The notes below the pieces were generated by a model. That model was not told the origin of the DNA and made no database searches. It worked only from the letters and a program-made list of their open reading frames with translations. DNA of 64,000 nucleotides from Hericium rajendrae (Eukaryota > Basidiomycota > Agaricomycetes > Russulales > Hericiaceae): positions 2,232,001 to 2,296,000 of the forward strand of contig CM065886.1 in assembly GCA_033439255.1 (NCBI GenBank). Direction: 5' to 3'. Both the position numbers and the translations under genes were made by a program. Below, piece by piece: positions 1 through 60,275 of the stretch (position 1 is its first letter; every line of letters begins with the position of its first letter).

Positions 1-240
1 AATCTAGGGAAATAGGCGAGCGACAGGGAGCCTATAAGTACTGGGACGACAATGGGAAAAGAACAATGGACACCATAACGGGTCGAACAATAGAGTGAGA
101 ACAATGGTGGCCAAAAGGAGAACAATGGGAGGGAGAACAATAGGATGTCCCAAAGGGGAACAAGGGCATGGGTGAAGGATAGCCCCAGGTCATGTGAGGA
201 AGTGAACATGTGATGGGGCTGCTGGAGCACATGACCGACG
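1..240. repeat. Imperfect GAACAATGG minisatellite
   Basis: The first ~160 bases carry several imperfect copies of a core close to GAACAATGG or GAACAATAGG, for example near 55, 88, 107 and 135, in purine-rich DNA. No convincing coding frame is present. The block lies just outside repeat module A, in the position that the GC-rich block at 47550-48835 occupies beside module B, so both modules border low-complexity DNA. It runs off the left edge of the window. Confidence 0.5.
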
Positions 241-749
241 CGATGCCTTGATGGCAGAGAAGAAGGCGGAGAGAAATGGAGCGATCCGTGACACTCGTTG
301 AACGAGCGATACTCGCTGTGTTAGTACAAGAAACGAATGAAAGAGAGTTTTTTACTTACCTATTAGCCCCCCAAGCCGTCTACTAAGCCCTTCCGAGTCT
401 TGAAGACGCCGTGTATATGGAGAGAGAGGGAGACGAAGGAGGAGATGGAGGAAGTGTTGCAAAGACAGAAGTCGCGCAACGACTTCAGCCACAGCAGCAT
501 TCGACTCTCGCGTTTAGCGGTTTCGACTCTAACAAATCAAATAAAATCCATTTAATTCACGCAAAAAGTGGGAAGATATAGAACACCGGTAGAAATACAA
601 TGAATCAGCCATCTATGTAATTACCATACAACACGCTCGCAGGTATGAAAATCCACTTAGTAGAATCTAACGGCCAGCCTCTGGCACGATGCCCGGCTAT
701 GCCCGGCCCGGTCTCGGCAAGCTGCATTTGACGCTCCGATCGCCACGTC

Positions 750-757
750 TATATAAG
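750..757 (+). promoter_or_regulatory. TATA box of module A
   Basis: TATATAAG is followed within 10 bases by GCGCGACGCGC and then a C/T-rich stretch. The same order occurs at 49337-49344 in module B. The pyrimidine-rich leader downstream is typical of fungal transcription starts. Confidence 0.5.
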
Positions 758-1016
758 ACGTGCGCGACGCGCTTCCTCTCTCTCCTCTTACCACTATCAT
801 CTCCCGTCTTTCGTCGCTCTCTCTTTTCCTGCCTCAACTCTCTGACGTTCGGTAAGTTGTTATACTGTTGCTATATTGTTTCATTGTTCACTAACCCTAC
901 TGTTCTTTATAGACTTCTACATTTTCGCTTTTATTATCTTAAGTAAGTCTTATGTTTTTTATATCTGTATCTTGTATACTAATTTGTTGACTTTGCCTTT
1001 AGATTATTTTCGCTTT

Positions 1017-1140
1017 TTCTTATCTATGTAGTAAGTCTTATCTTATCTTACTTATCTATTCTTTTATCTTTCAGTTTTATCTTATCTCATCTTTGAATCT
1101 TATCTCATCTTATCTTGTATGTTTTGTTATCTTATCTTGA
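1017..1140 (-). promoter_or_regulatory. GATA-site array (TTATC repeats), module A
   Basis: About ten TTATC pentamers lie within ~125 bases. TTATC is the complement of GATAA, the core bound by fungal GATA-type zinc-finger factors (nitrogen, light and iron regulators). The array lies inside what would be the intron downstream of the microexons. It may be a true regulatory cluster or only a microsatellite that happens to read as GATA sites. A matching array lies at 49596-49790. Confidence 0.4.
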
Positions 1141-1374
1141 AGTGTTGGTTTTTGTAGTGTATTATAGATGTGTAGTGTCTGTAACTTTGTATTAAATTAA
1201 ATGTGTTATAATTAAAATTTTTTGAAATATAATGCTTTTAAATTTTCGATGTTTTAAATGTTCTAGATGTAATAAGATTGGAATATATAATATATATGAG
1301 TATTTAAATATATTTTTAGTACTCTTAAGCAGCATACAAGACATAGGTGATATAGAGTAGATAGTAGCCCTACT

Positions 1375-1535
1375 AGCTAGACATGATATGATAACAGAGA
1401 TATATTGCATAGCTGACATAGCTATGATAGCCATTATATGCTATAGCAGCTATGAGAGCTATGATAGCTTATAGTCTATGCTATGATAGCTTATAGTCTA
1501 TGCTATGATAGCTATGATGGCTATCATAGCTCTAT
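1375..1535. repeat. CTATGATAGC satellite
   Basis: Tandem and interspersed copies of a near-palindromic core, AGCTATGATAGCT and its complement, occur between the GATA array and the TPR tail. The same motif occurs at 47200-47345 and at 50040-50170, each time next to a TPR coding tail. Confidence 0.6.
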
Positions 1536-1644
1536 ATAGATAAACTCACTACTATGGAGTAGCTATGTAGAAAAGAGGACTCCTATGGCCCTATCAGAGC
1601 TATGTAGGCTACATAGTGTCATATACCACTGGTCCTTTTCTCAG

Positions 1645-1818
1645 ATGTATCTGGGTGCATTGAACATGAGGCTAGATGATCTTGACTCAGCAAAGCATCA
1701 TTTTGAGAAGGCATTACAGCTGTATCATCAAGCTTCTAATTTCAGTGGTTTAGCTCAAGCCTCAGCATTTCTGAAAAAGGTTGAAGCTAAGCTGGAGCAG
1801 AGATTGAAGTCATATTAG
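1645..1818 (+). pseudogene. TPR gene tail (NLR fragment 1)
   Basis: An open frame from an ATG at 1645 encodes 57 residues: the second half of one tetratricopeptide repeat (NMRLDDLDSAKHHFEKALQL), then a charged C-terminal tail. This matches the last repeat and tail of the intact NLR-like protein at 20490-23625. No NTPase or upstream repeats remain. The ATG directly follows TTTTCTCAG, which resembles a splice acceptor, and the flanking bases (ACCACTGG then TTTTC, CAGATG) recur before the TPR tail at 50270. The frame could also be read from 1585. It is most simply a truncated relic; translation as a short TPR peptide from module A is possible but unproven. Confidence 0.6.
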
Positions 1819-2196: not shown

Positions 2197-4658
2197 CTAG
2201 TACGACCGCCCGAACAACGTCCAGCGTTTCGCGTTGTTCCCGCACGCAGGGCACTTCGTCTCGCCTGGAACGATCGGCATCCACCGCGACTGCTCGAACG
2301 GAATGGCCAGCGACTTGGCACCCGCCGACGGCGCCCGCTCGTCCTGCGGTTCCGCCGACCGGCCGCTGCGCTCCTTGATGTCGTCCTCGCATGCCTCCGC
2401 CTCGCACCACGGAATCGCAACGACGCACTTGTCGTCCAGCGCGGGCACGACGTCCTCCCACCTTGTCACCTCCTTCACGCGCGCGTCGTACGTGTCCTTC
2501 GCGCGCTGGAACATCTCCGCCTGGATCGTCTCGAGCAGCGCCGGCACTGCCTGCTCGATGCCCGCGAGCGCGATCGGCGCCTTCGCGCCCGTATCGCGGC
2601 GCACGCCGAGCGTCTGCGCCTTCACGAGGTCCTGCGGCCCGATCTCGAGGCGCAGCGGCACGCCCTTCTGCTCCCACTCGTTGAACTTCCACCCCGGCGT
2701 GTAGCCCTCGCGCAGGTCCGCCTTGGCGCGCACGCCCGCCTTCTTCAGCGTCTTGACGAGCTCCACGCACTTGTCGCTGATCTGCTGCCGCTGCGCGTCC
2801 GTCGTCTTGGCTGTGATGCCGCATGGCACGACGACGGCCTGCACGGAGGCCACGCGCGGGGGCAACACGAGGCCCTGGTTGTCGCCGTGCACCATGACCA
2901 TGACGCCGATTGTGCGCGTCGAGAGACCCCAGGAGTTCTGCCAGACGAAGGTCTTGCGCTGACCGGTCGGGTCGTTCGGGTCCTCGACGAAGATGTTGAA
3001 CATCTCCGGCTTGGAGAAGTTCTGCCCGAGATGGTGAGAGGTGGCGGCTTGGATGCCGCGGCCGGAAGTGGGGATGAATCCCTCGACGGTCGTGGTGTAG
3101 TCGCCGCCGGCGAACTTCTCCTTCTCTGACTTGACACCGGGGATGACTGGGACAGCGAGGAGTTCTTCATAGACGCGGCGGTAGAGATCGAGAATTTCAA
3201 GGACTTCCTTGTCGGCCTCGGCCTTCGTAAGATGTGCGGTGTGTCCCTCTTGCCAGAGGTATTCACGTGTGCGGAGGAAAGGCTCTGAAAACATGTCAAT
3301 AGCGATATCAGAGCCGAGAATTAGAGGCTCGTACGCGGACTCTTGAACTCCCAGCGGACAACGCTGTTCCACTGGTTGAGCTTGAGCGGCAAGTCACGGT
3401 GGCTCTTGATCCACTTTGCGTAGTCTGGTTTGCGGTAAGTGCAATTCGCGAGTAGCGTTGTGTTGAGACTTACAGGGATACATGGCTGTTTCGGAGGTGG
3501 GACGGATGGCGATGGGCTCCTCCAGATCTGACTGGCCACTGAACAAGACGTCAATTTTACGGACATGGCAGATCAAGTAGTCACTCACGCTCGTGTTACC
3601 CAGGCGACTTCAGGAGAGAACCCTTCGATATGGTCCTTTTCCCTCTCAAGTGCTTTCGCTGAGATGAACATGGGGAAATACGCGTTCTCGACCTCCATCT
3701 CCTTGATCTTTGCGTTGAACCATTCTAGTCTCGTAGTTAGCATACATCACACGGAGGATGAAAATCATATACCTTGGATAACCTCCCAAATGCTAAATGA
3801 CCAGGGTCTAAGGATATAGCAGCCACTGACGCTGTAATACTCGAGCATGTCCGCCTTCAAGAGAACCTGAAGAAAACCAGGCGTAAAAGCGTGTATTTCG
3901 TGCGATGGATGGTCGACTCACATTGGTATACCAAGCTGAAAAGTCAACCTCCTTCTTCACACCGATAGCAACCTGTGGAGCACCCTCGATCTTCGCATCT
4001 TCCTTCTCCACTTTTTTCTCAACAGGTTTGGCCGGAGCGGGGGCAGTGGCGCCGCCCTCCGCCTTCAGCGTGACGAAATCGACCTCATGCAATTTGGTAT
4101 CGGCTGTTTCCAGTTTTCGCAGGTATGTGATGAGATCCTGTCCGGACAGAAAAAGCGTGGCGCTGGAAGAAAGAGCATGTACGGCGAGAGGGGAGGTGGA
4201 AGACGCGATGGACGCATCGACGATGGTGATTACTTTCGGGAATGTCTGCTCGTTGATTGCGAGAGGAGATACTATTTTATGATAGATCAGTAGAAAACAA
4301 TAGCACAAATGTGAATATGGGACGTACGAGAGTCCTTATCCAGAGCGAAAAACTCGGATAGCAGGTCCTCCGATGCCAGTCTCAGATCCTTCAAATTCAG
4401 CTTCTTGCCTAGAGCAGCCGAGCTCGTCTCCGTCTCGTCTCGCGCGATCATAACTACAGGAACAGGAATTGCGTTTTTGGCGGTTTTGGGCTTGAAAACG
4501 AGCGTCTTCACGAGCTCGAAAGATTTCGGGGCAGCGGGGTCGCTCTGCAGTGCCTCCCGCCACGCAGCGGGAGACTTTGCCTGCGCATGCGATACAGACG
4601 CTGTGGGCGCGATTGACAGCGCAGAGAGTGTCTTTGTGATAGACTCGAGCGATGCCAT
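2197..4658 (-). CDS. Prolyl-tRNA synthetase, eukaryotic cytosolic type
   Basis: Class II synthetase that charges tRNA-Pro with proline in the cytosol. The ATG at 4658 opens [15 protein letters not shown] and is the first start that gives a clean family-like N-terminus. Exon 1 and the exon near 4275-3921 carry the N-terminal YbaK/ProX-like editing-type region and a Lys/Glu-rich linker. The next exons give the catalytic core: [19 protein letters not shown], then [16 protein letters not shown] (motif 2 area), then [19 protein letters not shown], then [16 protein letters not shown]. The last exon (2197 to about 3330) holds the anticodon-binding domain and the C-terminal domain ending [18 protein letters not shown], a hallmark of the eukaryote/archaeal-type enzyme. 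Several short introns interrupt the 5' half. It lies downstream of the isoleucyl enzyme on the same strand, about 420 bases apart, and looks intact. Confidence 0.95.
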
Positions 4659-20489: not shown

Positions 20490-23400
20490 TTAATCAACTA
20501 TCAGTTTCTTAGCCAATTTAGCTTTAACTTCTTCTAATAGCTTCATGCTTTCCTCAGTAAGATGAGATATCTGCTTATGCAATTGTAGTGCTTTTATTAA
20601 ATATTGCTTTGCTGCATCAAGCTTATCAAGTTTTATTGTTAATTTACCCAGAAGTATCAAGTCATTAGCCTGTCCACTGAACTCCTGAACTTGATGATGT
20701 AAATGGAGTGCTCTTTCAAGATGCTCTTTTGCTGACTCTAACTCATTCATCTCAATTTTTAATTTTCCCATAAGTGTTAAAGTGTTGGCTTGTCCTAAGA
20801 TATCCTGATTGTAATTATATAATCCTAAAGCTACATCAAGATATCTTTTTGCTATATCTAACTTATGTATTAAAATATTTACTTCTCCTAAGTATGTCAG
20901 ATCATGAGCTTGACCTAGAACATCATTAACTTGCTGATGCAAGTCTAATGCCTTTTCCAATTCTTGTTTTGCTATATCCAAGTTATTTAATTTTTTATTC
21001 ACATTTCCCAAACTTTGTAAAGCATTGGCTACTCCTAATATATTTGTAGTATCAGTATGTAAATCTAAAGCCTCTTCAAATTCATCTTTGGCTTCATCAA
21101 GTTGATTTAATTTTTCATAATACATTCCAATTGTATAACATATATCTCCTATGAGCTCATCATTATTTAGAGAATTGGCTAAAGAGGAAGCTCTATATAA
21201 TTCAGGTGAAATATCATGTATACTATCAAATCTAAGCTTTATCTCAGCATACAATTGGAGATAACAGATCTCTGCAGCTATTTCAAGTTCCTTCATATAG
21301 GATTCACATTTAGATAATAAAGCAATTTCATTAATTCCTAAAAACTTTGATTTATTAACAAAAGTGCAGATCAAATCTAGAGTTAAAAGCTTATTATCTC
21401 TATTTAGAAGATAATGTTGTAGCAATGTTCTCAAATTGTTACCATCAGATCGTATATCTCGAGTCTCCTCATTCTTAGTATTGCAAGTTTCAATATAAGT
21501 ATTTAAGTAAGACTGAAAGACATCTGAGTTTATATCTTCTCTTTCAAACATTGAACTTGTAATAAAATTGTTATGATGTATCACACGCATCAACTGAGCA
21601 TTATCATTATTGGCATGAGTATATTGTTCTAACATCATATTTAAATGAGTGTCTTCAGGTCTCAAAACTTGAAATGTTTTATTACAGGCTTTAATCCAGC
21701 TATACAAATAAGTTTGTAGATTAATATGACCATCAGGGCTTATTACTTGAAAAGGATGATGTTTTCTCATATAAAGTAAAATAGGTGATAACAATTTGGA
21801 TCTCATATGATCAGTATCTTCTGAGATCAAGGCACAATTTTTCAACCTTTGCAATGAATCTGTAATTGGATCTTCAAATTCTAGTACTTTTTGAATATCC
21901 TCTTCTTGTGATTCATATATACCATCTGGTAGCATGGACAACACACTAAGAATTGGCAAACACTGAGGATCATTTAATCTGGGACTTTGTAAAGAGAGTT
22001 CAATTGAATATTCAACACTAGACAATTTGTTGTGCAAGGCTTGCTTGCGTGTTAGCAGCTTAAAATGCTCTGAACTAGACCACTGCTTCCAAACTTTAGT
22101 TGGTGTGCTAGTTCTGGTATAATGTGCAAGCAAAGTCACTGCCAATGGGATACAATCCACAGCTTTTATTAGATTCTCAACATCTGCATCATTATAATGA
22201 GAAATGTCATAAAAAACTCTTATAGCAGCATCTAGAGACAGTGGTTTGATTGATGGTATTTGAGCTGTCCAAGATACATTCCAAGGATGTTCTTCACCTC
22301 TCATTGTGATCAAAAGGTGGACAGAAGTGATATCAGCCAATTTGAGCAAAAATTCCTCCACTTCATTGCTTTCAGATTCCCAGGGTGTCTCAAAATTGTC
22401 CAGACATAAGATAGCTCTGCCCAGATTTTTGACAGCATCAAGAACCCTAGCTTCATCTAAACCCTGCTCTGCATTTGCATAAACACCCAACATCTGACCA
22501 ATAGACACAATAAGAGCATCTCTGTTTTCAATGGCATCACAGGCCAGAAAGTAGCATGCATTTTTATAGCTCTCTTGAATATCATCATGATGCAGCACAG
22601 AAAGAGCAATAGAAGTCTTTCCAATTCCTCCAGGGCCCAAGAGAGCAATTCTAGCAGGAGGGCCATGCAAGATAGAAGCCACAAGTTCAGCGATAATATC
22701 ATCACGGCCATGCATGATCCGAGGTTTTGCTGGTAGGCTATATCTGATCCTAACAAATCAATTTGAGTATTCAAATCCTCTATACTTCTGCATATACACA
22801 CCTGATACTTTGTGACGAAACCTAGACTGTTGTCAGTGTCACATGTTTTTAGATTCTGGGGGTACGCACATTTACGTTCGAGATATGGCCATGGATGCTT
22901 CGGAGGAGACGATTATTCGCAAGTCCCACTCGAGTCTGAGCGACTCGTGTCAAAAAGCACTATACTCGCTCAGCAGACAGATCGACTCACATTGAAGAAG
23001 ACAAGTTCCGCGCGAACTTGTTCCTTGCACTTATCGACCATAGATCGCAGTTCACGACGCCGAAGTGCTATGCGGAGGAGCTCCGACTTGCCTTTCCCGG
23101 AGCAACGAGATAAGGCCTTCGTCACACTTTCGAGTACCCTGCCGCAGATGACAATTAAGCTTATGTGCACTTCGAATGAAAGCGTCAAGTACTTTTCAAG
23201 GTCACGCAGATGGGTCTTGATGTCATCCGACAAAACCGTGTCCGTCGGATCGGCCGAGTCCGCATGTTCGGCGATGATCTTCTGAATTCCCTGGATATCG
23301 CCCATGACCTCTGCCCATTTGTCCCGGCAAGCGGTCACCTCCTGCAGGCCATTCGACTCGGTCAGAACTGACAATGTTATACATCATGGGAAGAACTCAC

Positions 23401-44174: not shown

Positions 44175-47100
44175 ATGCCAAAGAAGAACAGCAGTGTCGC
44201 AGCGACTGCAGCAGCCCGATCGGACACCATCGATCCTGCGTCGCCTTCGCCCGCACCAGATCCTGGTCGCAAAGGATCATCTCTCGCCATCCCAGCATCA
44301 CCCAGAGAGCTCATCGCATCCAACCTTGACACGATCTTCAACTCGCTCAAACTCGCAGGCGGCATGGTGCAGAACGTTCCGTACATCGGCCTCGTCGCCG
44401 ATATTATGTTGCAGATCTTACAGATCAGGGATGTCAGTATTGTTGGATTTTTAGATGGGTACATGCTAACGGTATATCAGGAGGTAACCGTGTTCAAAGA
44501 TAAGTGGAAAGATGTCATGAACAATATCAAGGAAATGAGGAGTATCATCGAGGATTATGCGGAGACGTCTGTGCAGCCAGACGGGTCTCCGAGCTTAGTG
44601 CTTTCGGAAGACGTCCAAGGCCATCTTCGTGCTCTCGAAAGGTATGCGACGTACTTTTGTTCACGGCCTGATGTAACGATTTGCTCCAGATTGCTAGAGA
44701 ACATTGCTCAGGCTTTGTCTCGTTGTTGCCCGAAGCGCAAAGCAGATCAGCTTCGAATCATATTGCAGCGCCGCGAACTGCGGTCACTTGTTGACGGCTG
44801 CAAAGTGCAACTACAAACGGAACTAGCCTTTTTCAATGTAAGCTTAGCTGCCATTGCTGTCTATAGTTTCTGATCTGTCTATTAGACCAGGACCAATCTG
44901 TCGAACAACCGCATCTTGCAAAGTATCCGTCGTGATGTCCCACAGAACAAGGTTTGTTTTGCGACTGCTTTTTATATACCATCATTGATCATTATCACCA
45001 CAAGGCGTCATCTCAACCTATCGAGTCTGCACCTCATGCTTCTTTATCTTTAGATGTGCAATGCTGATTATGATTGACAGGATCAAGTACACTTTGCCGG
45101 CCAAGCCTCAGATCATGCATGGCCGTGATGATATCATTTCTGAACTTGTGACTGCTATCTTGAATGACTCTTCTGTGAGACTTGCTCTCTTGGGCCCTGG
45201 GGGCATTGGAAAGACCTCTATTGCTCTCTCAGTGCCGCATCATGATGATATTCAAAAGAGCTATAAAGATGCATGCTATTTTCTGGCCTGTGATGCTATT
45301 GAAACTAGAGATGCTCTCATTGTTTCTATTGGCCAAATGCTGGGTGTATATCCAAATGCAGAGCAGAAACTTGATGAAGCCAGGGTTCTTGATACTCTTG
45401 GAAATTTGGGCAGCATTATCTTGTGCTTAGACAATTTTGAAACAGTCTGGGAGTCTCAGAGCAATGAAGTAGAGGAGTTTTTACCTAAACTAGCAGCAAT
45501 CAATTCTGTCCATCTTGTAATCACTATGAGGGGTGAAGAATACCCATGGAATATATCTTGGACAATGCAATTGCCACCAATTGAACCTTTGGACTTGAAT
45601 GCTGCTATGAGAGTATTTTATGACATTTCACACTATAATGATGAAGATGCACAGAGTTTGGTAAAAGCTGTGGACTGCATTCCATTGGCAGTGATTCTAC
45701 TTGCACATTATACTAGAACTAGCACACCAGAGAAAGTCTGGAAGCAGTGGTCCAGCACAGAGCATTTTAAACTCTTAGCTCGCAAGCAGGTACAACATAA
45801 CAGATTGTCTAGTGTGGAATATTCCATTGAACTTTCCTTAAAGAGTCCTAGATTGAAAGATCCTCAGTGTTTGCCAATTCTTAGCATTTTGTCTATGCTA
45901 CCAGATGGTATATATGAATCACAAGAGGAGGACATCCAAAAGGTACTAGAATTTGAAGATCCAATTACAGATTCTTTGCAAAGTCTTAAAAACTGTGCTT
46001 TAATCTCAGAAGATATTGAGCATAAGAGACTAAAGTTACTATCACCTATTTTATTATACATGAAAAAGCATTATCCTCTTCAAAAAATAAGTCCAGATGG
46101 TTATACAAATATGATAGCTTATATCAAAAGCTGGATTAAAGACTGTGAATATCAAAAAAATCACAAAGATATAAAAACAGATAGCAACAATCTCAGAACA
46201 TTGTTATAGCATTATATTATTGCTAATGCTAAGAAAAGTCCAATAATAGATATGATTCTGACTTTTGTTCGTATTTCTATGTTTGAAGAAAGAAATGAAA
46301 TAAACTTGCTATCTAAATGTGAATCCTATGTACAAAATATTGATGATTTGTCTATACAAAGCAATTATTTTCTTTTATATGCTGAAACTTATCTTAATTT
46401 TGATAACATAAGTAATGTTAAGGACTACTTATCAAGATCTCTATCTTTGGCAATACAGATACATGATGTAGTTCTACAAGCTAAGATTTATCATATAATG
46501 GGAAATTATTATACTAGATCATATCAACATGATATAGCAAGATTGCATCTTGTAAAGGCCCTTGAGCTACATACTGAAATTGCAGATATCAATAGTCAAG
46601 CTCAAGACTTGTAACACTTGGGTGAAGTAAATATTAGATTATATAAGTTTGATATAGCAAGACAATATCTTACCAAAGGACTGAAACTTTTTACTCAAAC
46701 TCAGAATGTTTTAGGTCAAGGACATAATTTGCATTTTTTGGGTGAAATAGCTATGGAAAAAAATGACATTTATACAGCCAGACATTATTTTGAGAAGGCA
46801 TTGAAATTACATACTCAAGCTCAGAGCATTTTAAGCCAGGCAAATGATTTGCACTTTCTTGGTAGAGTTGAATTTGATAGAATAGTAGATGATTTAGAAA
46901 AAGCAAGGCAGCATTTTGAGGAAGCTTTAAGGTTGCACACTCAATGTAAGAGCATTATAGGCCAAGCCAATGATTGGACTTATTTAGGTTTATTGGACAA
47001 GAGACTGCATAATTTTATAGCAGCAAAATTACATTTTGAAAATGCATTGATGTTACATATTCAAATTTAGGATGTTAGAGGTCAGGCTCATGATTTACAA

Positions 47101-47199
47101 GGTTTAGGAGAATTGAGCTTAAAGCTAGATAAGCTTAATGAGGCAAAGCAACACTTCACAAAGGCATTAGAACATCTGAAAAATCTGAAATCTACATAG
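44175..47199 (+). pseudogene. NLR-like STAND NTPase with TPR repeats (gene 2), broken
   Basis: Close paralogue of the gene at 20490-23625 in the same exon plan: 44175-44432, 44481-44641, 44690-44837, 44886-44951, 45005-45024 (20-nt microexon) and 45081-47199. The N-terminal helical domain (QNVPYIGLVADIMLQILQI), P-loop (LLGPGGIGKTS), Walker B (IILCLDNFETVWES) and sensor (LVITMRGEEYPWNISW) are intact. The last exon stays in one frame from end to end but holds three stops: TAG at 46207, TAA at 46612 and TAG at 47068. Each falls where the paralogue or the TPR consensus has Gln, so each can be one C-to-T change. If translated to the first stop, it would give the N-terminal domain plus NTPase without TPRs. 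Recently inactivated is the simplest reading; a truncated product is possible. Confidence 0.85.
45005..45024 (+). other. 20-nt microexon of NLR gene 2
   Basis: GCGTCATCTCAACCTATCGA encodes ASSQPI plus two bases, between acceptor CACAAG and donor GTCTGC. It aligns with the 20-nt unit at 22802-22821 and restores phase to the exon starting at 45081. Confidence 0.65.
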
Positions 47200-47345
47200 C
47201 TGCCAGCCAATGCTATTCCTGGTTCTATAGTGCTATGGCTACTATGTAGTTGGGCCACACAGCTATACAGGACTATGGTAGCTATCATAGCTATCATAGT
47301 CATGGGTGATAGGTATATAGTATTATATAGTAATAGGACACTACT
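47200..47345. repeat. CTATGATAGC satellite behind NLR gene 2
   Basis: Copies of GCTATCATAGC and CTATAGT-type relatives begin right after the NLR stop. They are the same near-palindromic family as at 1375-1535 and 50040-50170. Confidence 0.55.
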
Positions 47346-47549
47346 ATGCCTGCTATGTAAGTTATGTATTTTGAGTCTCCCTCTATGTATCCTATAGATA
47401 CTATGTTCCTTACAAAGCTTCCAAAGGTTACTATGGGGTCTTAGGCTGCTATAATATCTACAATTGGTGTAGAGTCTATGATTTTGAGCATACTATACTC
47501 GAAACTAGGTCAAATTTAATTATATTTAACTACTACTACTACAGTCAAG

Positions 47550-48835
47550 TATACTACATTACACACACACCGGCGGGATGACAAGGCATGCACACACACA
47601 AGGGTGCGGCTGATGCGCGCGATGCTGCATACGAGATGCAATGGCGCGCGCGAAGCCCGGGACCGTGCGCGGGAGTGCGCATGCTGCGGGGCCGATAGGA
47701 CGGGCCTGCGCGCGGGAGACACGGAGCGTGGGGTCCGTGCGCAAGTCATTGGGCCTATGCGCGAGGTGCGGGGACCGTGCGCGAGGCGCGGGGAACGTGT
47801 CGGAGATGCGAGGGACGCGCGCGAGGCGTCAGTGGCAGCGGCGGAAGGCAGAAGGTCCGTGTGCGAGCCGTTGGCACGACGGGCCCATGCGTGCGATGCT
47901 GACGTGCGACGCTGGCATGCGACGGACCCGTGCGCGGAGGCTAGAGGCTGGTGCGGGTGCGGGGGGCATGCGCGACATGACAGATCCGTGCGCGGGGCTG
48001 CAGGCATGCGCGCGAGGCGCGGTGGCCGCACAAGCGGGAGGGCGGCACGAGGCGTGAGGTGCGGAGATGACGTGCGAGGCGTAGGGCTGCGGCGCGCCTG
48101 CGCATGGCCATGCGCGCTGCCCAGCATGCGCTGGTGTGCCCATCCCGCATCGTGCAGCACTGGCGCGCCCGCTCTTGGTCGCGTGCGATGTGCGCGTGTT
48201 CATCCGTGCACGTATGCTGGCATCCCCGCACGGCTCTGGCCATCCGCCGTCCGTGCGTGCGCTGGCAGGGCCTTGTGTGTGCTAGCGGGGCCGCATGCAC
48301 GCAGCACGGCGGGGCGGGCCATGCTCGAGACGCGGAGGCTGCGCGGAGCGTGCCTGGCGCACGGGCCACGCAGCAGCGCCGTAGGCGGGGCGACGGGGAG
48401 ACGACGGGGCCATGCGGGAAGGGCAGAGCCCGTGCACGAGGCGGCGGGCTCGCATGCGCGTTGTTCGGTGTGTGCATGCGCCAGCACACACGATCGCGGT
48501 TGTTGAAGACAGCGGGGGGTGGGCTGATGCGGGAAGACGGCGGCGGGAGGCGGAGGGAAGGGAGAGCCGCGCGAGGAGGGCACGGGCGATGAGGTGGCAC
48601 GTCGTTGACAACGCGCAGATGGCGTGCAACGACGCGCGTGCGTGGCCCGTGCCCCAGTGCACGAAAGGAGGGAGCCCGGGGCTTGTGCGTCGTTCAGGTC
48701 GCACGCAGGTGTCGTGGGTGTTGGGAGTCGCGCATGGGACGAGGAAGTTGCGCGCGGGCGGATGTGGTAGGCAGGGAGCACGAAAGGGGCGGCGGGAGTG
48801 ACGGGGAGACCGGAATGCGCGAGGGGCCAAAGGAA
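47550..48835. repeat. GC-rich CpG-dense minisatellite-like block
   Basis: About 1.3 kb of extremely GC- and CpG-rich DNA, with recurring short units such as CCGTGCGCGAGGCG and GGCATGCGCGCG, sits between AT-rich flanks. Long frames exist on both strands, including one of 300 codons at 47604-48506, but they overlap in several frames at once, are made of Arg, Ala, Gly, Cys and His, and match no family. That is what very GC-rich DNA gives by chance. It borders module B on its minus-strand side. Not called as coding. Confidence 0.6.
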
Positions 48836-48847
48836 GAAGAAAAGAAC

Positions 48848-48880
48848 GAGAGTATCGCTCGAAAAACGAGCGATACTCTC
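48848..48880. repeat. Perfect 14-bp inverted repeat
   Basis: GAGAGTATCGCTCG and its exact complement are separated by AAAAA. It lies directly downstream of the minus-strand intron acceptor of module B. Copy A keeps the right arm (CGAGCGATACTCGC at 304-317) but only a weak left arm. Confidence 0.8.
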
Positions 48881-49336
48881 TGTCTTAGTGCAGAAACAAC
48901 GAAGATGAGTTGTTTTTACTTACCTCGTGAGCCTCTGCTTACTATTAACCACTCCCAACCATCGAGTTTGACAACCTTGGAGAGAACAACGGAGGAAGTG
49001 GCGAGGGAACGGGGAGAACAGCGAGGAGGGACGAGACAGAGAGTAAGACGAGTCGAGATGATCTGTCAAAGTCGAAGCGCGTTCGGTGCTTCAGCCACCG
49101 AACGCGAGTTCAAACGGTTTGAAGCATAACAAATCTAATTAAACAGTAGAAATTCAGAGAAAAAGAAAGCAGCTACCGATTGCTCGTGTAGATACATCAA
49201 ATGAGAAAAATATACATCTACTGCAAGATGTGTTCGTGCATACCGTATATAAGATTGTCACGTCTGGGATCCAGCCTCTGACGCGACGCTCGGCAAGCGC
49301 CCGGCAGCCACGAATCCCAGCTCTGCCCGGGATTCG

Positions 49337-49344
49337 TATATAAG
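49337..49344 (+). promoter_or_regulatory. TATA box of module B
   Basis: TATATAAG is followed by GCGCGACGCGC and a pyrimidine-rich leader, as at 750-757. Confidence 0.5.
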
Positions 49345-49595
49345 GCTCGCGCGACGCGCGCTGCCTCTTGCTCTTTAACTCCCACTATCTCTTGCCACGT
49401 CGACGCCTTCGTCGACGTCGTTTGCTCGCTCGTCGTTGTTTTTTGCTCGCTCGTTGTTGTTGTTGTTTCTTGCTCGTTGTTGCTGTCTTTAAGGTAATCT
49501 TTTAATTGTTGGTCTCTTATTGCTTATACTAATACTAATGTCTTTTAAGTTAGTTTTTTAGATTTCGCTTTTTGTTACTTTGGTAAGTTCTTATG

Positions 49596-49790
49596 TGTTA
49601 TCTTTATCTTCTAAGACTTATGTTTTCTTATCTTTTCTTACTAAGTTTCTTATATTCTCTTATTCTCTTATCTTGTATTCTTTTACTTATCTTATCATAT
49701 CATATCTTCTTATCATATCTTATCATATCTTATCATCTTGTATTATCTTATCTTATCTTATTATTTTCTTACTTATATCTTTGCTTTTTA
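49596..49790 (-). promoter_or_regulatory. GATA-site array (TTATC repeats), module B
   Basis: More than ten TTATC pentamers lie in under 200 bases, often as TTATCTTATC or TTATCATATC. It occupies the same place relative to the microexon and TPR tail as the array at 1017-1140. Confidence 0.4.
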
Positions 49791-50039
49791 GTTAGTAGTA
49801 GTGTTTGTGATATCAATATAATCTTGATGCAATGAAATACTTTATATCTGTGTGATCATATGTTATTAATTTTGATATAATTGTAGAAAAGATTTAAAGT
49901 TCTAATAAATTTTATTGCTTTAATATACATATCAGATCTACATATTGAATGTAGGATATGTGAGACATATATTATACATAGGTTATGTGAGACACATATT
50001 GAATATAGGATATGTAAGACATATAAACCTTATAGCTTT

Positions 50040-50170
50040 AATAGATACTGATAGCTTTCATAGCTAGTCATACTATCATAGCTACACAGTTAGCCCTCAT
50101 AGCTATGATAGCACTCCATAGCACTCCATAGCATCACCTTTGAGCCTCATAGCACTACATAGCATCACCC
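50040..50170. repeat. CTATGATAGC satellite before TPR tail 3
   Basis: Repeated GCTATGATAGC and CATAGCACT units lie between module B and the TPR tail, matching the satellite at 1375-1535. Confidence 0.55.
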
Positions 50171-50269
50171 TTTGGCTATGTGGGCTATACAATAAAGGGC
50201 GATACTATGAAGCTAGGAGATCTATGTAGACTTTATAGAGCTATGTACCACTGGCAAATTTTTCAGATG

Positions 50270-50601
50270 AACTACATGCTAAGACTGAGGATGCTTTAGC
50301 TCAAGCTATTGATCTGAACAATTTGGCCAAGATAAGTGTAAAACTAAATAAGTTTGATGCTGCAAGACAGCAGTTAAATGAGGCATTGAAACTGAATATT
50401 CAAGCTCGAGATATCTCAGCCCAAGCTGATGTTTTACACTATTTGGGCATGTTGGACATAAAGGTAGATAAACTTGATGAAGCTCAGTATTATTTTAGCA
50501 GAGCTTTTCATTTGCATGGTCAAGCTTCTCAACCTGATGGTCAAATATGGGACTTACAACAGCTACAAGAAGTGAGAGATAAGCTGAATGAAAGATTATA
50601 A
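50270..50601 (+). pseudogene. TPR gene tail (NLR fragment 3)
   Basis: One open frame encodes the last two and a half TPRs and the C-terminal tail of the NLR-like family. It enters at ELHAKTEDALAQAIDLNNLA, continues ISVKLNKFDAARQQLNEALK and DIKVDKLDEAQYYFSRAF, and ends LQQLQEVRDKLNERL. The first in-frame ATG is at 50323, but family homology starts earlier. Just upstream is a stretch shared with TPR tail 1 (TACCACTGG, then a T-run, then CAGATG), yet the two tails enter the repeat at different points. No NTPase remains. It is a relic, or possibly the last exon of a transcript from module B. Confidence 0.65.
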
Positions 50602-50869
50602 TTTTTGTTTGAGGTATATATCATTTGTCCACTTATGATGTGAGAACTCACTAATCATTCTGTACTTGTTTTCGTGCAGTTTGTAGGCTTAGGTTTAGAT
50701 CAATCTGCAAATAACGAGTAAAATTATATAAGATGTCCATGGCCTGAGTTAGAGTTAAGTATCCTTGCATGAAAATCTGTCCCAGATGAAAGTCCGAAAC
50801 TTGCTTAAGCATCAGAGTACTCGGTGTTTGAGACCGACGATGAAGACACGAAACACCACTATCTTAGGT

Positions 50870-52446: not shown

Positions 52447-55400
52447 TCACCGAAAGCGCGCACCGTTCGCGGCACGCAGCTTGCGCATTGCAGATGGTGA
52501 ATCGTAGATGAACGCATCTGAGTCGGAGCTGTCGTCAGAATCGTCGTCCGAGTCATCCTGCACGCCGAACGGCGCCATGCCATCCACGCGGAACACGTCG
52601 ACAAACGGCGTCTGCGGCATGTCCGAGCCTACCTCCGTCGATTTCGCGAGAATCGCAGCGACGCGCGCCTCAAGGCCCTGGCTCGGCATACTTGGAGTCG
52701 GCGGGTGCGTTTTGGGTGATGAGTGCATGCTGTCCTCCTGGAAGAATGTGCTCAGCTCGTGGAGATTCTGCACAAGATCGCCGAGGTCCTCATCAAGCGG
52801 CCGCGGCGAGGACGCCTGAGGTGATGCAAGGCCTTCGATATCCTCCGGTTCGAAGTCGATCCGTGAGGGCCGAGAGGGTACTTTGCAAGTGTCGAAGACC
52901 GCCATGACGTTCGCACGACATGTCTCCTGCAGCTGGTCCTGACGTGCGACACACCAACCCGAACGCTCCGGCACACCGAAGACTTCGCCCACTGCTTCGC
53001 GGTCCTTCACTGTCTGCGTGATATGCATGCTCATGCGCAGGACCTGTTTGGCTGGTAAACCACCTGTGATGGTCATAGGCTCCTCCAAGACCTCGAGTGC
53101 TCGAGGCGCGAGATCCGTTTCCAGAAGTCGCAGCAATGGCATAAGAAGTTCCGAGCCCAAGAGCTCCACCGGACTTCGAGTCTCTCGTTGCTGAAACAGG
53201 ACCTTGAGAATCTGAAGCGATGACACGCGCAACCAATGCTCGGAGTTCAGGACCAGGCTGAGCAAGAGCGTCACAATTTCTGTCCAGTGATCGATGCCAT
53301 AGTGCTCTCGGAGACTAGCGACAGATTGCCGCAGGAAGTCGTCCTTCGTGCGGAAGCGCCCCTTCACGAACGATGTCATGATGCGACTGATACTAGGTCG
53401 ACCTTCTTCCTCTGCTAGCTGTCCAAGATTCTCGGCGAACTCCTCTAACTCAGCGTCTATCACTTCATCGGTCATGGCCCTGAGACACAAAGGCAGCGAA
53501 ATAGTGTACAGATCGCGGACGCGTCCCTCAGCTGGGTCTATGAGTCTGTTGTCGAACACCTTGGACAGCCTTTGAAGCATCTCAATCGTCGGGCCGAACG
53601 TGACAGACGATCGGAGGCCGATGAGAAGAGGTGCCTGCAGAAACGACTCGCCTTGCCAATCAGGTGGACGTTGTGATAGTAGGAAGTCGACTGTGTTCTG
53701 ATCGTTGAGGTCGAGCCGAGACAGAACTGCTTCCAAAAACCTGACCACGTGGAGGAACTCGGTTTCGACGGTTGTGGAGAGACACGCGCATGCAGACCAG
53801 AACATCTGCGGGACGACGGCCACGTCCAATTCTTCTGATGATGCCAGAGCACTCAGCGTCTGCAGAAGCTCTGTGGTGAAGGTCTGAATATTTTCATCGG
53901 GAGCGCCAATCGTATTCGAGAGCCGACCGAGCAACAATGCCAAGTCTGCCTGGGTTGCTGACGGAAGGAGGGCACGAAATATTTGCAGAGAACGAAATGC
54001 GATGCCTCGGATGGAACAAGCAGTGCCCCATAGCAATGCCTGAGAGCCCCATTGTTGCGCTAATTTCGTGTGCAACGGCGACAGCAAGGTCAAGACCTTG
54101 GAGCACAACCAGCGCATCTTAGGCTCTGATTGAGAGCCAGTTTCGTCTTCCCTCCACAACCTGGTATCCATCTCGGCTTCAAGCTCCATGATATTCGCTT
54201 TCAGAGAAGCGCGACTGGGATGAACAGATCGGTCCGGAAGCTCGTCGTAGCCGGACATCCACGATCGTAGTACCTGGAAGAGCAGATGCCGGGCTTGCTC
54301 CCGCACGAAGGCAAGACGATGGTCCAGATGAACAAAAATTGCATGGAGAATGACAGGAAGCTGTGCCTGAAAATCCCAATGGCGCTCTATGGCAACGTCT
54401 GCCAAGAAAAGGAGAGCGAACTGGCCTGCACCGAGAGATGACTGCCTCGGCTGTTCAGCAAAAAGAATGTCCAAATCGGACCAAAGCTCCATATCCTCAG
54501 CATTGGGAAACGCCAGCTTGTGGTCAATGGTAGGTAGCATGCGGGCCGGCTCGATGACGCTGCAGAGATCCTCGACTACTTGTCGTCCGATGGCGGACTG
54601 GGCCAGACAAGCAACGACCTTCTGGGCGCATTGAATATATGGAACGCTTCCAACTTTCTGTGACTGCTCCAGCAGGAATCGAATGGTAGCATGGCCATTA
54701 GACTGATAGGGCGCCGCTACTAATCGAATCCAAAGTACTTCGATCTGCTCTGGGAAGTTACTTGCGTAACGCAGTGTGAGAGCCACGAGATGATATAAAG
54801 CGTTTCGTCCACTGTGTGATAGACCGGATTTGTCTTCGGACATGAGGTTTATATCGGGACTCCAATACTCTAGGCTCTGCAAAAGTACTAGAGGCAGATT
54901 GGACAAGTCGAAGACCTCAGGCAACCAGGCTGAAAATTGAGAGAGGACACTGATAGCCTTATCAGGGTGCTCGCCGGCCAGTACATCAGATATCAAGCGG
55001 AGTGCATGAAAATATGTGCTGGGTGCAGAGCTACCGATGGCGGCTTCAAACTGTGTCAATGATAGCATCCCCGATGACTGCTCATGAACGACTTCCAAGA
55101 TTCTCAAAGCTAGACTGCGGATTGGGAGGAGGGCATGAGATAGATTAAAGAGCCCCAGGCAAACGACCTGTTCGAAGTGGAAGCCGTGACCTTGTCCGTT
55201 ACAGATGACGTCCACGACAACCTCGAAGAATCGAGCATTGCTTGTGTCGAGATCCTTCGACGTCACGAACGCCCGACGTATCACCTCGGACACCAGCTGC
55301 GAGTCGCGTTCGCTATGTAACAGAAGCGACCGAAGGGCTTTTCTATGATTCAGATCAAGGTTAACGGCAGGCTGTAGAACAAGTATATATAACTTACTTT

Positions 55401-58400
55401 CCACTATCCTGGATCGTACGGTCGTGCGCTGCCAGAATGGTGTGAATTCGCTCGAGAAGTGGAATTGGCTCCAGGGTCTTTTGATATTCCGGGGCCGGCA
55501 CTCTCTCTGTTGGAGAGCCCGAGGCAATGTCGGGAGGGAAGTACGCTTTGGCCTAGAGGAATAGTGAGCATATAATGAGAAGAAGGAAGAATCCACGCAC
55601 GCATAGCGATGCCATGGCACCGATCGCCGCTATAGACAGCAGTTTGGTCTCTTTCTGGAAGAGCGCAACCGCCTCCCCTCTCTCAGAAGGATCCGATACG
55701 GCATTCGTTGCCGCCCGCTGCATAATGATTAGACGCTGCTTAGCGGTCTCCGATTGCCGGCCGAATTGACACCACTCTTCACATAGACGAAAGAGGGAAA
55801 GATGCATATGAGCGGGGATGAATCTATCCGTGTCGTTCAGCGTCGTGAGACCGTCAAAGAGACGCTCGATCGTCCCGCAGAAATACCGGCGAAGCTTCTG
55901 TAACTTGAACTGGTCCCGCGACTCCGCTGAGGTGAGAAAGGCTTGTGTGTTGCGTACGAACTTGAGTACGGGCGAGAGCGCTGCCTGCCGACCGCTCGAC
56001 CGCTGGTCTTGCAGATAGTATGCTGTCAGAAAATAGATACGAGCCACGGCCGTGAAAAGACGCTCTTGCCGGCGGCCCCGTTCCGTCACGGGAGATGATC
56101 CAGACTTCGAGCGCGTATCATCAAACAATTGTCGATGAGAAAGCAACCCCAGTTCCTCGAATAGCTGTGGATAGCCTCTGGATGGGAAGGAGCTGATGCA
56201 GAACACAGCTGCATCCCTAAATACCGAATGTTCCGAGTCTAGGAATGGCGTCAAGTAGCGAATCAGGCCCCGGTTGGTGGTGAGACGCTCGCGCTCAAAG
56301 TTGACATCCGACGAGGCCCGTGTATGATCGCGATGAATGAGGGCCGGGCGAATGTCTACGACCGATGCCATGGAACACAATATCTTCGTCCACATGTACC
56401 ACTGAGCGGTCAGGGCCCTGTTGTCCGCAATGGCCTTCGCAATTTCTTTCTCGCCCCCACTGGGACCGCGTGACGGAGGAATAGCCGGCATCCTAGCATT
56501 GAGCCCAGCCATCGCAGCCATAGTCGGGTGGAAACGCGAGGCAGCAGCAATGAGGGTTTCGCGGAGGATGGTCAAAGCCGGAGGTAATGGCTGCGACTCG
56601 TCACCACTGTAGCGATGCATAAGAGACGAAAATACCCATTGCCATATAGTCCGATCCCTGTTGTCCTCGCTATCCGCGATACGGAGCAAGAAGTCAGCCT
56701 TATTCGAATTCTGCCATTGCGCCAAACGGTCCAAGTCGTTGGGTTCCAGGACGTGTTTGAGGTTATCCAGGCAGGTACTAGAGGAAATTCTTCCCTGTAG
56801 GACGTCGACAACACGGCAGCCTTGAGCGTCCGTCTCTGAGATAAGTTGTGACCATATTTCAGTTGAGACAAGACCGACCAGCCGAAGGAGCTTGACGCCA
56901 ACGCAGTGCACTGGCCGAGACGGGTGGCAGAGGAGAAACAATGCCCCTGCCTCAATCTCGTCTAGCCTTGCGACCGCATTCGATACTTCATCTTCTGGTA
57001 GCGTGCTGATCTTCTTATCTAAAATCTCGTGTATCCAGCCATCAATCAGGCTCACCCACAGATTCAGGAGGCGGACATTCTCGATGACGAGCCTCGAACT
57101 TGAGCCTTCCTGCGCAACGTGCGTAGGGTCGAACAGAAATGCAGTATACCTCTTCAAGACTGCGCTCGAATACAGCGGGGTGCTCATGAACCTGCGCAGC
57201 GCCGAAGTAGCCGCCTCGCCGATTGTCGGCTCGACGTGGATGACACCGCGCACGAGCATCTCAATAGCGTCGTCGAGCGAGAGCGACGCATGCAAGCACC
57301 GCGGCCAAGCCTGGAAGCATGTTTGGAGGAGATGCAGCTGTGGCGCAAGGGAGTTCGGGTATGCGATGATGCCGTCAGGGTGTCGCCGGATGGTATAGCT
57401 GTGCGTCTCGTCATACGACGGATTCAGTCGAGCCATAGACCAAAGATCGTCAAAGACGGACATGCGCCCGACGGAGACAGCACATGTCGACGCGACGTGG
57501 CTGATGATGGCCCCAAAGCGGTCGAAGAAATCCTGCATTCCTGGCTTAGAGAGCAGTGACTGAGGCATGAACTCTGCGGAAGGTGAGTAGTCGTGCCATG
57601 ATGGAGCGCCAGAGAAATCGGAGCTGGAAGGCCAAACAGGGACTTGTTCCTCTCGTTCCATCAGATGCAAACTCAAAAGGACAGCCTGTACTGCGATAGT
57701 CATCCTTTCGAAAGAGAGCACTGTTGGCAAATTGGATGGCTTGGAGTTGATTGTCTGCTCCTGCATTAATCCCATAACGACGTCGACACCGAAGTCGAAA
57801 TGCCTGGCAAAGACGAAGTGGACGATATAAATGAACGGCTCCAGATGGTCTTCGTGCGGAAATATCGAGTTCCGATTCGGCGGAAAAAAATGCTTCAGGA
57901 GTGCTTCTATCTTTGTCGTCGATGTCGTATTGGACTCGCGACAGCGGAACATGTAGGTCCAGACCAAACGCATCATGCCATTGAGAACGGGTATGCGGTA
58001 CGGTTTTTCCTGTGAGAATAGACATCAATGCATCGTCAGGACAAGGTCACAAGCTACCCACCTTCAACTTGCTGAGACCAGCTTCAAAACAAGATGTCCA
58101 GTTGCGCAGGAAATATTCCGTCGGGGCGACACAAAGACTCGCAATCAGAAGCGGGTATGCCACATGCCAATATCGGGGCTTCGTCGACATATCCTTCGCC
58201 TTCGGATAGACGATCTCGATTGCTTTAGCCCACTGGGGGTGATTGACCTCCGCTTGAGCGGTCTGGCGGATAGGATACATCAACGGGCGAACATAAGAAG
58301 ATAGACCAAACCACTGACTTTAGCAATCGGATGCAGGAGATGAACCAATGTCTCGGCGAAAGCGACCTTGAAGCGGTAGCCGTGCGCGTTATCGAAGGAC

Positions 58401-60275
58401 TTCGCCAGCCCCTCCATGAACTCGGCTCCTTCCTCAAACGACTCAGGGGGCCAGACCTATTGGGCACAGGCTCAAAATGTTTGTCCATTTGTCCAAATGA
58501 CAGATCATTAAGCTAACCTTGATTTGAATGTGTTTCAGCCCACGGACGAGATTTTCATACTTCATATCCAAGTCTTTTGGTACCTGGCCTGCAGCCACAG
58601 GGCCGAACTCTGACAGAAATCGGTCTGTCACACTCATGAATCTATCGAAGACGTTAGCCTAGAATACAGCGAGCACATGCATGTATCTGCTTACCGTGTA
58701 TTAGCAAGGTGACCTAGCAACGTCGCATACAACTCGGCATTCGTCCTGTGGTTCGCACTCTGCGCGAGCAGCTTCAAGTCTGGCTTCCTGAACTGCTCAA
58801 ATGTGGTTTCCTCGAGGCTGTATCCCATTGCCTCTCCGAGTGCGTCCTTCGACAGCGACTGCACAACGGCGATGAGGGCCCGGCACATGATGTAGATCGC
58901 CGCGAGTGCCTTGCGCTCATTCAGCACCATATGCGCGTCCTGCGGCCGAGCGCCACGCCCGGACGCAGGCGACTGCCCGACGTGCTGCCGCAGAATGTCG
59001 CTCGACACCGGCTCGTTCTGCGTGCGCCGCCAGCGGCGGATGCAGTCGACGACCGGCTTCGCGTTCTTCTGCCCGATGCGACCAAGAGTCTGGATAATAT
59101 CATCGAAAGCCTCGTCGATACCCGGACCCATAAAATCCGCGAGAGGCGGCTCTCTCTCCTGTGGCCCTCATCAGTATGTATCACAGACAAAGGAGCAATG
59201 CCTGCACGACACAGTATTTTTGCTGTAAAGACCTTGATAAGAGTTTTAGATAGATTGACGTCCTTTTTCAGCATCCTATTTGGAAAAAGGACTCTAATGA
59301 GTCTAACACTCTTATCAAGGTCTTGTTTGGAAGAAATCTATGTCACGCCCGCAGTGGAGAGCAACTACTCACGAGTCCCTGCCTCAAGAACACGTCGATC
59401 TTCATCTCCGCCGCGGTCGCAAAGCGCAGAAACACCGCATGCAGCGCATACTCCGCCGGCGTGCGCGGCTCGATCTCGACCCTGTCCTCCTCGACCTCCG
59501 GCAGCGACGCATTCTCGCTCTGATAGAACCCGCCAAAGAACCCGTTCGGCATCGGCGGCACCGGCGGGGTCGCGAGAGTCGTGACGAAGCTCGTCCCGTG
59601 GTCGCTCCCGCCGTCCGACATGTGGAACAGCGAGCCCGAGTGCGAATGCTGCGAGCGCGCGGACGCGTGCCCGCGCCCGCCGCGCGGGGGGCGGTGCGGC
59701 GGGCTCGGGCCGTCCTGCGGGCGGCGCAGCACCGGCGCGTTGTGCGCGAGCGACGAGGTCGAGCGGTTGAACGGGTTCTTGAGCACGGGGTACGAGCTGT
59801 GGTCGAGCGGCGGCAGCGGCGGCGGGTCGCTGTTCTTGCTCGCGCTCTTGAACGCGTTGCGGATCGACGCGAAGCTCGGCTTCTTCGTGAACGGCGAGCT
59901 GCTCGTCGTCGCGATGGACGAGTGCGTCGAGTGCGCGAACGGCGTCGTCGAGCCCTTGCGCGCCGGGGGCCGCACGGAGTGGTTCGAGTCGTCTGATGTG
60001 ACGGAGTCGCCGCGCGCGTGGAAGTAGCTCCTGTCCGCGCGTTCTGAGAAGGGCGTCGGGGTGCTCGCTGTGGGCGAGTCCAAGCTAGAGCTCATGCCCA
60101 TGCTCCCGAACCCAAACCCCGTCCCGGTGCCGGGGGTGCGCCCAAAGGGTATCGGCGTGGACCCAAAGTCCTCATCGTCAAAGTCTAGAGACCCACAAGT
60201 CCTTTAGCACCTGTATATCCCAGTAATGACTGTTCGCGCACCTGGAATAGTGATCTGGATCCGATCTGCGCTCAT
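52447..60275 (-). CDS. Cell morphogenesis protein, Furry/Tao3/Mor2 family
   Basis: Very large HEAT-like scaffold of the RAM/MOR polarity pathway that activates an NDR kinase. I start it at the ATG at 60275: MSADRIQITIP, joined by a short intron to DFDDEDFGSTPIPFGRTPG. A long Ser/Pro-rich disordered N-terminus follows, then PRTPAEYALHAVFLRFATAA, ERKALAAIYIMCRALIAVVQ, MKYENLVRGLKHIQIKV, WAKAIEIVYPKAKDMSTKPR and RIPVLNGMMRLVWTYMFRC, all typical of the conserved Furry N-terminal domain. Two long exons (about 58010-55550 and 55350-52447) carry the rest of the alpha-helical repeats. The C-terminal ~130 residues are acidic and Ser-rich (DDSDDDSDDSSDSDAF) and end RKLRAANGARFR. A 55-nt intron near 55390 shifts the reading frame between the long exons. 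One intron, 59372-59159, is 214 nt instead of ~55 and contains a hairpin. Confidence 0.93.
59228..59324. repeat. Hairpin (MITE-like or small-RNA-like) in a Furry intron
   Basis: Two 42-nt arms, 59228-59269 and 59283-59324, are inverted copies with a 13-nt loop. The outer 17 bases (AAGACCTTGATAAGAGT and its complement) and the inner TCCTTTTTC pair perfectly, with a handful of mismatches in between. It explains most of the extra length of the 214-nt host intron. No clear target-site duplication is visible. Confidence 0.75.

Follow-up and report, generated by a model that had tools for sequence, protein, structure and literature searches.

At two places in a 64,000-nucleotide stretch of the Hericium rajendrae genome (the window; C9:2232001-2296000), the same ordered series of promoter-like and intron-like signals lies directly before coding sequence for TPR repeats. 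What is this module; is it the promoter of a family of host genes, or is it a piece of something mobile that has come to lie beside them? Having searched the whole assembly (GCA_033439255.1, 46.8 Mb in 19 contigs), we conclude that the module is very probably the middle and right-hand portion of TIR DNA transposons that move by cut and paste, belong to a large family and are apparently non-autonomous.

The two copies, which we call A and B, both carry the listed signals in the fixed order given in a preliminary description of this DNA, and these signals recur in the genome far beyond chance. The TATATAAG-N4-GCGCGACGCGC core, with up to two mismatches, is found at 391 places (196 + 195) against 2 (1 + 1) in a reversed control, and the microexon motif with its donor (TTTCGCTTTT then GTAAG) at 426 places (217 + 209) against 3 (1 + 2). 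Searches of the genome with window positions 281-860 and 48840-49500 returned 44 and 81 matches, from the best 40 scored of 172 and 407 candidates, respectively. As had also been proposed, the signals are kept while the intervening sequence diverges: copies A and B are alike only locally, their best common block being 82.5% identical over 63 bp, and the 42 cores in the loci examined (some double-counted, in overlapping loci) fall into 22 sequence clusters. One listed signal fared differently; the exact form of the CTATGATAGCCTATGATAGC satellite is absent genome-wide in an exact search, and degenerate subterminal repeats are found instead.

Where does the unit begin and end? Near-identical copies start at CATCTGAGAAA and stop abruptly at ..TTTCTCAGATG, and the flanks before the start and beyond the stop are unrelated. 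The element termini are CATCTGAGAA..TTCTCAGATG, with conserved inverted termini of 11 bp. The unit is longer than the module first described, having a GC-rich left half as well, and the bases up to position 293, which had been counted as part of the module, are the end of a nested LTR element. Right ends fall at 1647 in copy A and 50269 in copy B, with the TPR tail, earlier assigned to the unit, outside in both cases. The features of copy A are as follows.

1-293, no strand assigned: right LTR end of a nested LTR retrotransposon, inserted in the copy A hairpin
294-1647, plus strand: right part of copy A, a TIR DNA transposon with termini CATCTGAG..CTCAGATG
316-359, minus strand: intron signature of 44 nt, GTAAGT..CTAAC ACAG, leading into the hairpin
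750-772, plus strand: core promoter motifs, TATATAAG at 750 and GCGCGACGCGC at 762
852-912, plus strand: leader intron signature of 61 nt with branch point CTAAC, preceded by a CT-rich leader
913-942 and 1003-1030, plus strand: two microexons carrying ATTTTCGCTTT / TTTCGCTTT
943-1002, plus strand: intron signature between the microexons
1637-1647, plus strand: right terminal inverted repeat TTTCTCAGATG, followed by TA
1648-1818, plus strand: 3' end of the host NLR gene (last TPR repeat and stop), outside the element
L041:1655-3206 (C9:2223655-2225206), outside the window: left part of copy A, split off by the nested LTR element

Downstream of the microexons, copy A has a TATC-rich array and then CTATGATAGC-type repeats. 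Its left terminus, at L041:1655, lies 8.3 kb before the window, and its junctions read GGGATA-GT-CATCTG on the left and CAGATG-TATCTGG on the right, that is, a TA duplication plus two extra bases (GT). Relative to a copy on C3 (in L021), the two parts are 98.4% identical over 1354 bp and 99.5% identical over 1557 bp, so the transposon family has moved recently. The nested element that splits copy A runs from L041:3207 to window position 293 and has two identical 423-bp direct repeats with TG..CA ends, the left LTR at L041:3207-3629 and the right LTR ending at window position 293; near-matching 5-bp flanks (CTCAT/CTCGT) surround it. The identity of the two LTRs suggests a very recent insertion, and an element of Gypsy type is suggested by minus-strand frames in L041 that resemble pol on inspection by eye alone. 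Window positions 1-293 also match three other loci (L031, L036 and L038) at 97-99.7%.

Copy B is complete within the window and has the following features.

44175-47172, plus strand: 5' part of an NB-ARC/TPR host gene, with NB-ARC and TPR matches
47173-50269, plus strand: copy B, a complete transposon of 3097 bp with CATCTG..CAGATG ends
48850-48878, minus strand: hairpin GAGTATCGCTCG-loop-CGAGCGATACTC, directly downstream of the minus-strand intron signature
48880-48923, minus strand: intron signature of 44 nt
49337-49359, plus strand: core, TATATAAG at 49337 and GCGCGACGCGC at 49349
49494-49561, plus strand: leader intron signature of 68 nt
49562-49582, plus strand: microexon of 21 nt, in which the motif is ATTTCGCTTT
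50270-50602, plus strand: 3' part of the host gene, with a TPR match in frame from 50269, outside the element

The duplication flanking copy B is AA (47171-47172 and 50270-50271). Much of its left half is a very GC-rich degenerate stretch (47560-48840) in which the long frames on both strands have no Pfam match.

To describe the family more broadly, 21 copies were paired by hand for having both termini, copy A, split over two loci, being left out. All 21 have CATCTG..CAGATG ends, as expected of copies so chosen, and 20 of them measure 2,659-3,501 bp (usually ∼2.7-3.1 kb); the remaining copy, of 5,754 bp, has another copy nested inside it. Exact target-site duplications of 2 bp flank 16 copies, of 3 bp two and of 4 bp one, and two copies have none. 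Duplications of 2-3 bp (18 of 21) compare with a mean of 3.1 for shuffled flanks, and those of 2 bp (16 of 21) with a mean of 2.8 and a maximum of no more than 10 in 20,000 trials. The exact terminus TTTYTCAGATG occurs 1,033 times genome-wide against 24 in the reversed control. The 100 terminus places listed all lie on C1; of the 32 adjacent pairs among them that face inward, 17 span 2.6-3.3 kb, and nine of these 17 short pairs contain one of the 34 hairpins on that contig, where ∼0.3 would be expected. In the two copies counted, the outer 350 bp have 6-8 CTAT/ATAG words in every 100 bp, versus 0.2-0.8 inside. Complete copies have a GC-rich left half (72% GC in the left interior of the one copy measured), with the left terminus ∼1.3-1.6 kb left of the hairpin, and no Pfam domain is present in the long frames scanned, four in copy B and five in the L025 copy. 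Copies number in the hundreds, with mutually unrelated flanks. In other words, inverted termini, duplications, subterminal repeats, unrelated flanks and the lack of a recognised domain together make up the anatomy of a non-autonomous TIR DNA transposon, and the earlier suggestion of a repeated unit belonging to a mobile element is borne out by the 391 cores, the 1,033 termini and the duplications in 18 of 21 copies. Against this reading stand the two copies without a duplication, the two extra bases at the left junction of copy A, the 25 of 34 C1 hairpins outside any short (2.6-3.3 kb) terminus pair, and the fact that an autonomous copy was not found.

What, then, are the kept signals for? The most striking lie on the minus strand. 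The hairpin pattern GAGT-N4-CTC..GAG-N4-ACTC, which is palindromic and therefore counted once on each strand, is found at 433 places genome-wide against one in the control. In the loci examined, a donor and branch-point intron signature stands directly before 40 of the 42 hairpins, and of the two exceptions one looks unrelated. After shuffling, 1.7 of 40 upstream stretches satisfy the same rule, as do 1,130 of 54,000 positions taken at random (2.1%). In an alignment of 27 hairpins, preselected for at least 9 of 12 complementary bases and for fixed GAGT/ACTC ends, which favours pairing, 98.5% of the cells pair and five of the 12 pairs are changed on both sides. Such double changes occupy 14 cells in the 27 sequences, compared with 2.7 (sd 1.4) after shuffling and at most 2 in slid controls; the copies are related, so these changes are not independent events. 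At the free arm positions, four in each arm, 35 of 48 listed places are fully Watson–Crick and 45 of 48 pair when G-T is allowed, and these 48 places show several stem types. Pairing of the hairpin is therefore maintained, and its arms covary. Would the paired form be RNA or DNA? Among imperfect internal pairs, read on the intron strand, G.U outnumbers A.C by 8 to 1 (two-sided p 0.039), and by 12 to 6 when the loop-closing pair is included (p 0.24); this excess, among related copies, is only suggestive of an RNA rather than a DNA hairpin. Rfam gave no match at or above the gathering score within the window, and 12 sub-threshold matches in four loci. At one further locus (L044, C14:1902500-1904499), three related but diverged intron-hairpin units stand in tandem, with hairpins near 312, 807 and 1584, spacings of about 490 and 780 bp and C-rich stretches after each hairpin; two long frames there have no Pfam match.

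On the plus strand, the core recurs in most of the 22 clusters together with a leader that is rich in pyrimidines and varies in length, short introns whose branch points read CTAAT/CTAAC, and microexons bearing TTTCGCTTT or a motif close to it. A first intron was found by rule in 18 of the 22 cluster representatives, and in these 18 the leaders are not depleted of ATG (26 versus 23 expected), a count to be read with the fact that the rule misplaces some first introns. Diverged subfamilies keep predicted spliced-leader signals with microexons.

These observations can be assembled into a mechanism. A transposase supplied in trans, perhaps from the CACTA-like Plavaka group, would bind the subterminal repeats and move the elements. 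The central region would act as a divergent promoter, its rightward transcript yielding a leader cut into microexons and its leftward transcript a 44-nt intron ending at the covarying hairpin. The signals may have been kept since the elements, or the autonomous lineage behind them, depend on these transcripts. The simplest view is that an autonomous element uses, or once used, this central region as its divergent promoter, and that the region has been kept in the short elements.

Is the region still of use to the short elements? It is possible, though on the whole unlikely, that they are mere deletion derivatives of an autonomous element, in which the common promoter of two divergent genes persists as a leftover that is not selected. 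Two genes arranged head to head would need just such a promoter, divergent and with spliced leaders that are not translated, and in the two short copies tested no coding domain was found; however, the diverged copies that were read share the order of signals, with no coding remnant seen between leader and right end, which would make the loss old, and the hairpin arms covary between short elements. A more ambitious proposal, which we offer tentatively and hold to be rather doubtful, is that the elements live partly through RNA. Their divergent promoter would drive a leftward transcript whose 44-nt intron leads into a covarying 12-bp hairpin where a clear 3' splice site would be expected, and a rightward leader divided into repeated microexons; the hairpin would be a structured non-coding RNA controlling splicing or 3'-end formation, kept across diverged subfamilies.

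Which superfamily do these transposons resemble? CACTA-type non-autonomous elements have short inverted termini, dense subterminal repeats and short duplications, and they include internal deletion derivatives. The first three features are common to the elements described here, and the fourth may be; their termini, however, are not CACTA; an internal promoter, microexons and a covarying hairpin are, to our knowledge, not standard features of that class. PlavakaB, as characterised in the available text of a 2025 study, ends in CATCA..TGATG and has target-site duplications that measure 2 or 3 bp (PMC12730594). Four of the five terminal bases agree (CATC..GATG), duplications of 2-3 bp flank 18 of 21 copies here, and the group is known from Agaricomycotina (PMC12730594). 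Plavaka matches are abundant in the H. rajendrae genome. The fifth base differs (CATCT..AGATG here), the copies tested here have no transposase, and a divergent spliced promoter with a hairpin is not mentioned for PlavakaB in that text (PMC12730594). Because the fifth base differs and transposase hits are unlinked to the modules tested, we describe the element as functioning in the manner of a non-autonomous CACTA/Plavaka-type element, without assigning it to PlavakaB. In the available text of the literature on Plavaka, introners, CACTA subterminal repeats, promoters of non-autonomous elements and Agaricomycetes NLR genes, including PMC12730594, PMC9860276 and PMC9674265, the element is undescribed.

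The genome carries a heavy burden of DNA transposons: KDZ accounts for at least 130 loci, Plavaka for 81, and Transposase_21 for 31 matches, of which 29 exceed the cut-off, the matches having been merged by hand into loci. Could the elements be mobile promoters that express neighbouring transposase genes, as one half of a split autonomous system? We regard this as very unlikely. Some copies do lie within 1 kb of Plavaka or KDZ matches; for example, a 2,659-bp element at C7:2313 kb (L042) is ∼670 bp from a Plavaka match, and another copy, at C3:2499 kb (L043), lies in a KDZ-type gene. Across 152 modules (100 of the 391 core places plus 30 of 40 and 22 of 40 scored search places, overlaps dropped), however, transposase hits number 4 pairs for Plavaka, 8 for KDZ and 2 for Transposase_21, where ∼4, 7 and 2 are expected by arithmetic for a uniform genome, with KDZ loci taken as at least 130. 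For these 152 modules, this near-uniform frequency rules out a promoter of Plavaka, KDZ or Transposase_21 genes; moreover, only 5 of 14 pairs have the orientation of an outward promoter, and the L043 copy breaks its gene, being inserted inside the CxC2 domain, with coding to the right of its end resuming at model position 18. Neither copy serves as an autonomous one, since the frame at the left end of L042 has no Pfam match and L043 is inside the CxC2 domain. Longer terminus pairs, of 4-8 kb, are present on C1, at 56705-63527, 284685-291103, 428212-434305 and 575119-583560, and there is another on C14 at 1900320-1906329.

Equally improbable, in our judgment, is an introner-like role, in which the whole transposon would be an intron, its terminus TTTCTCAG the 3' splice site, and insertions would be spliced out. 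The available text of PMC9860276 describes some introners as non-autonomous DNA transposons that have terminal inverted repeats and bring a 3' splice site of their own. The terminus here, with its terminal CAG, could likewise supply a 3' splice site, and each terminus, read towards the outside, is a pyrimidine tract followed by CAG. The family medians of 30-654 nt given there contrast with copies that are mostly 2.7-3.1 kb (PMC9860276). A CTRAY motif lies within 50 nt of 24 of 29 internal microexon acceptors (shuffled 4.1), yet of none of 28 right termini (shuffled mean 5.4), these ends being drawn from loci that were selected because they closely resemble the window copies or have transposase matches nearby, so that many are near-identical and older subfamilies are under-represented. 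At the left ends, similarly chosen, 15 of 29 have a CTRAY within 50 nt (shuffled 5.8), which would suit an introner; in 12 of these 15 the motif is a single CTGAT lying 48 nt upstream and common to related copies. Additionally, no conserved donor was seen by eye near the entry end, at the other end of the element from the acceptor, and the host gene of copy B looks decayed. The lack of right-end branch points also disfavours the terminal TTTCTCAG|ATG as a working splice acceptor and start codon, as does the undepleted ATG count of the leaders, and because the right terminus differs in this from the microexon acceptors, splicing from leader to TPR through it is not favoured.

We return, finally, to the TPR genes. 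Coding sequence for TPR repeats was sought by tblastn (P0002 and P0003) in up to 900 bp of flank, some flanks being shorter where a locus ends, and was found at 2 of 28 right ends and 2 of 29 left ends of the same selected set. The positive ends are the two window insertions seen from both sides, the gene continuing on the far side both times. Copies A and B are inserted within the TPR regions of two related NLR genes, parting the tails from the bodies. Since TPR coding occurs at 2 of 28 right ends only and the gene resumes across both insertions, the TPR tails are host sequence outside the transposon, and a TPR tail as part of the unit is ruled out. For copy A, the 5' part of the host gene is L041:1-1650, a frame ending in a long TPR array and preceded by an NB domain match at C9:2221164; the tail at 1645-1815, a weak TPR match (E 9.4e-5, below the Pfam cut-off) that also matches P0003 by tblastn, resumes that array. 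For copy B, the TPR coding to the right is in the frame that continues the interrupted repeat. The copy B host gene, whose first part (44175-44870) has no Pfam match, is probably decayed because three stops, near 46209, 46612 and 47070, interrupt a single frame.

That the module is a promoter cassette which was copied along with the genes of a large NLR/TPR host family, its leader being spliced onto TPR exons, is scarcely credible: both window copies do lie directly before TPR coding, and the terminal ATG of copy A is in frame, but TPR flanks so few right ends, both genes resume on the far side, NLR relatives (P0001) give 15 genome matches against 391 cores, right termini have no branch point (0 of 28), and the ATG of copy B is out of frame. 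Eight of those 15 matches are on C9, six of them forming a cluster of related places within ∼130 kb (2.15-2.28 Mb), and between the two split genes sits a third NB-ARC/TPR gene, which has a long open frame (window 20490-22715, minus strand). Two hits in one cluster are too few to indicate an insertion preference for NLR genes. Other neighbours are the C-terminal part of a prolyl-tRNA synthetase (ProRS-C_1, HGTP_anticodon; 2197-3372, minus strand), just right of the split NLR gene, and a MOR2-PAG1 cell morphogenesis protein (52447-57976, minus strand).

The preliminary description had allowed that genome-wide copies might prove to match a known transposable element terminus with no link to TPR genes; transposon termini without such a link are largely what we find, although an exact match to a known element is not. 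Its picture of a mobile repeated unit with kept signals stands, but the carrier of TPR tails and the promoter of NLR genes do not. The apparent promoter plus TPR module is instead explained as transposon insertion into immune-type NLR genes, and this explanation is a warning for gene models in such genomes. The family also offers a testable case of a non-autonomous DNA transposon that keeps divergent spliced-leader signals and a covarying intron-hairpin but has no recognised coding domain, with a possible function at the level of RNA. If they are transcribed, several hundred promoter-bearing copies could influence nearby genes.
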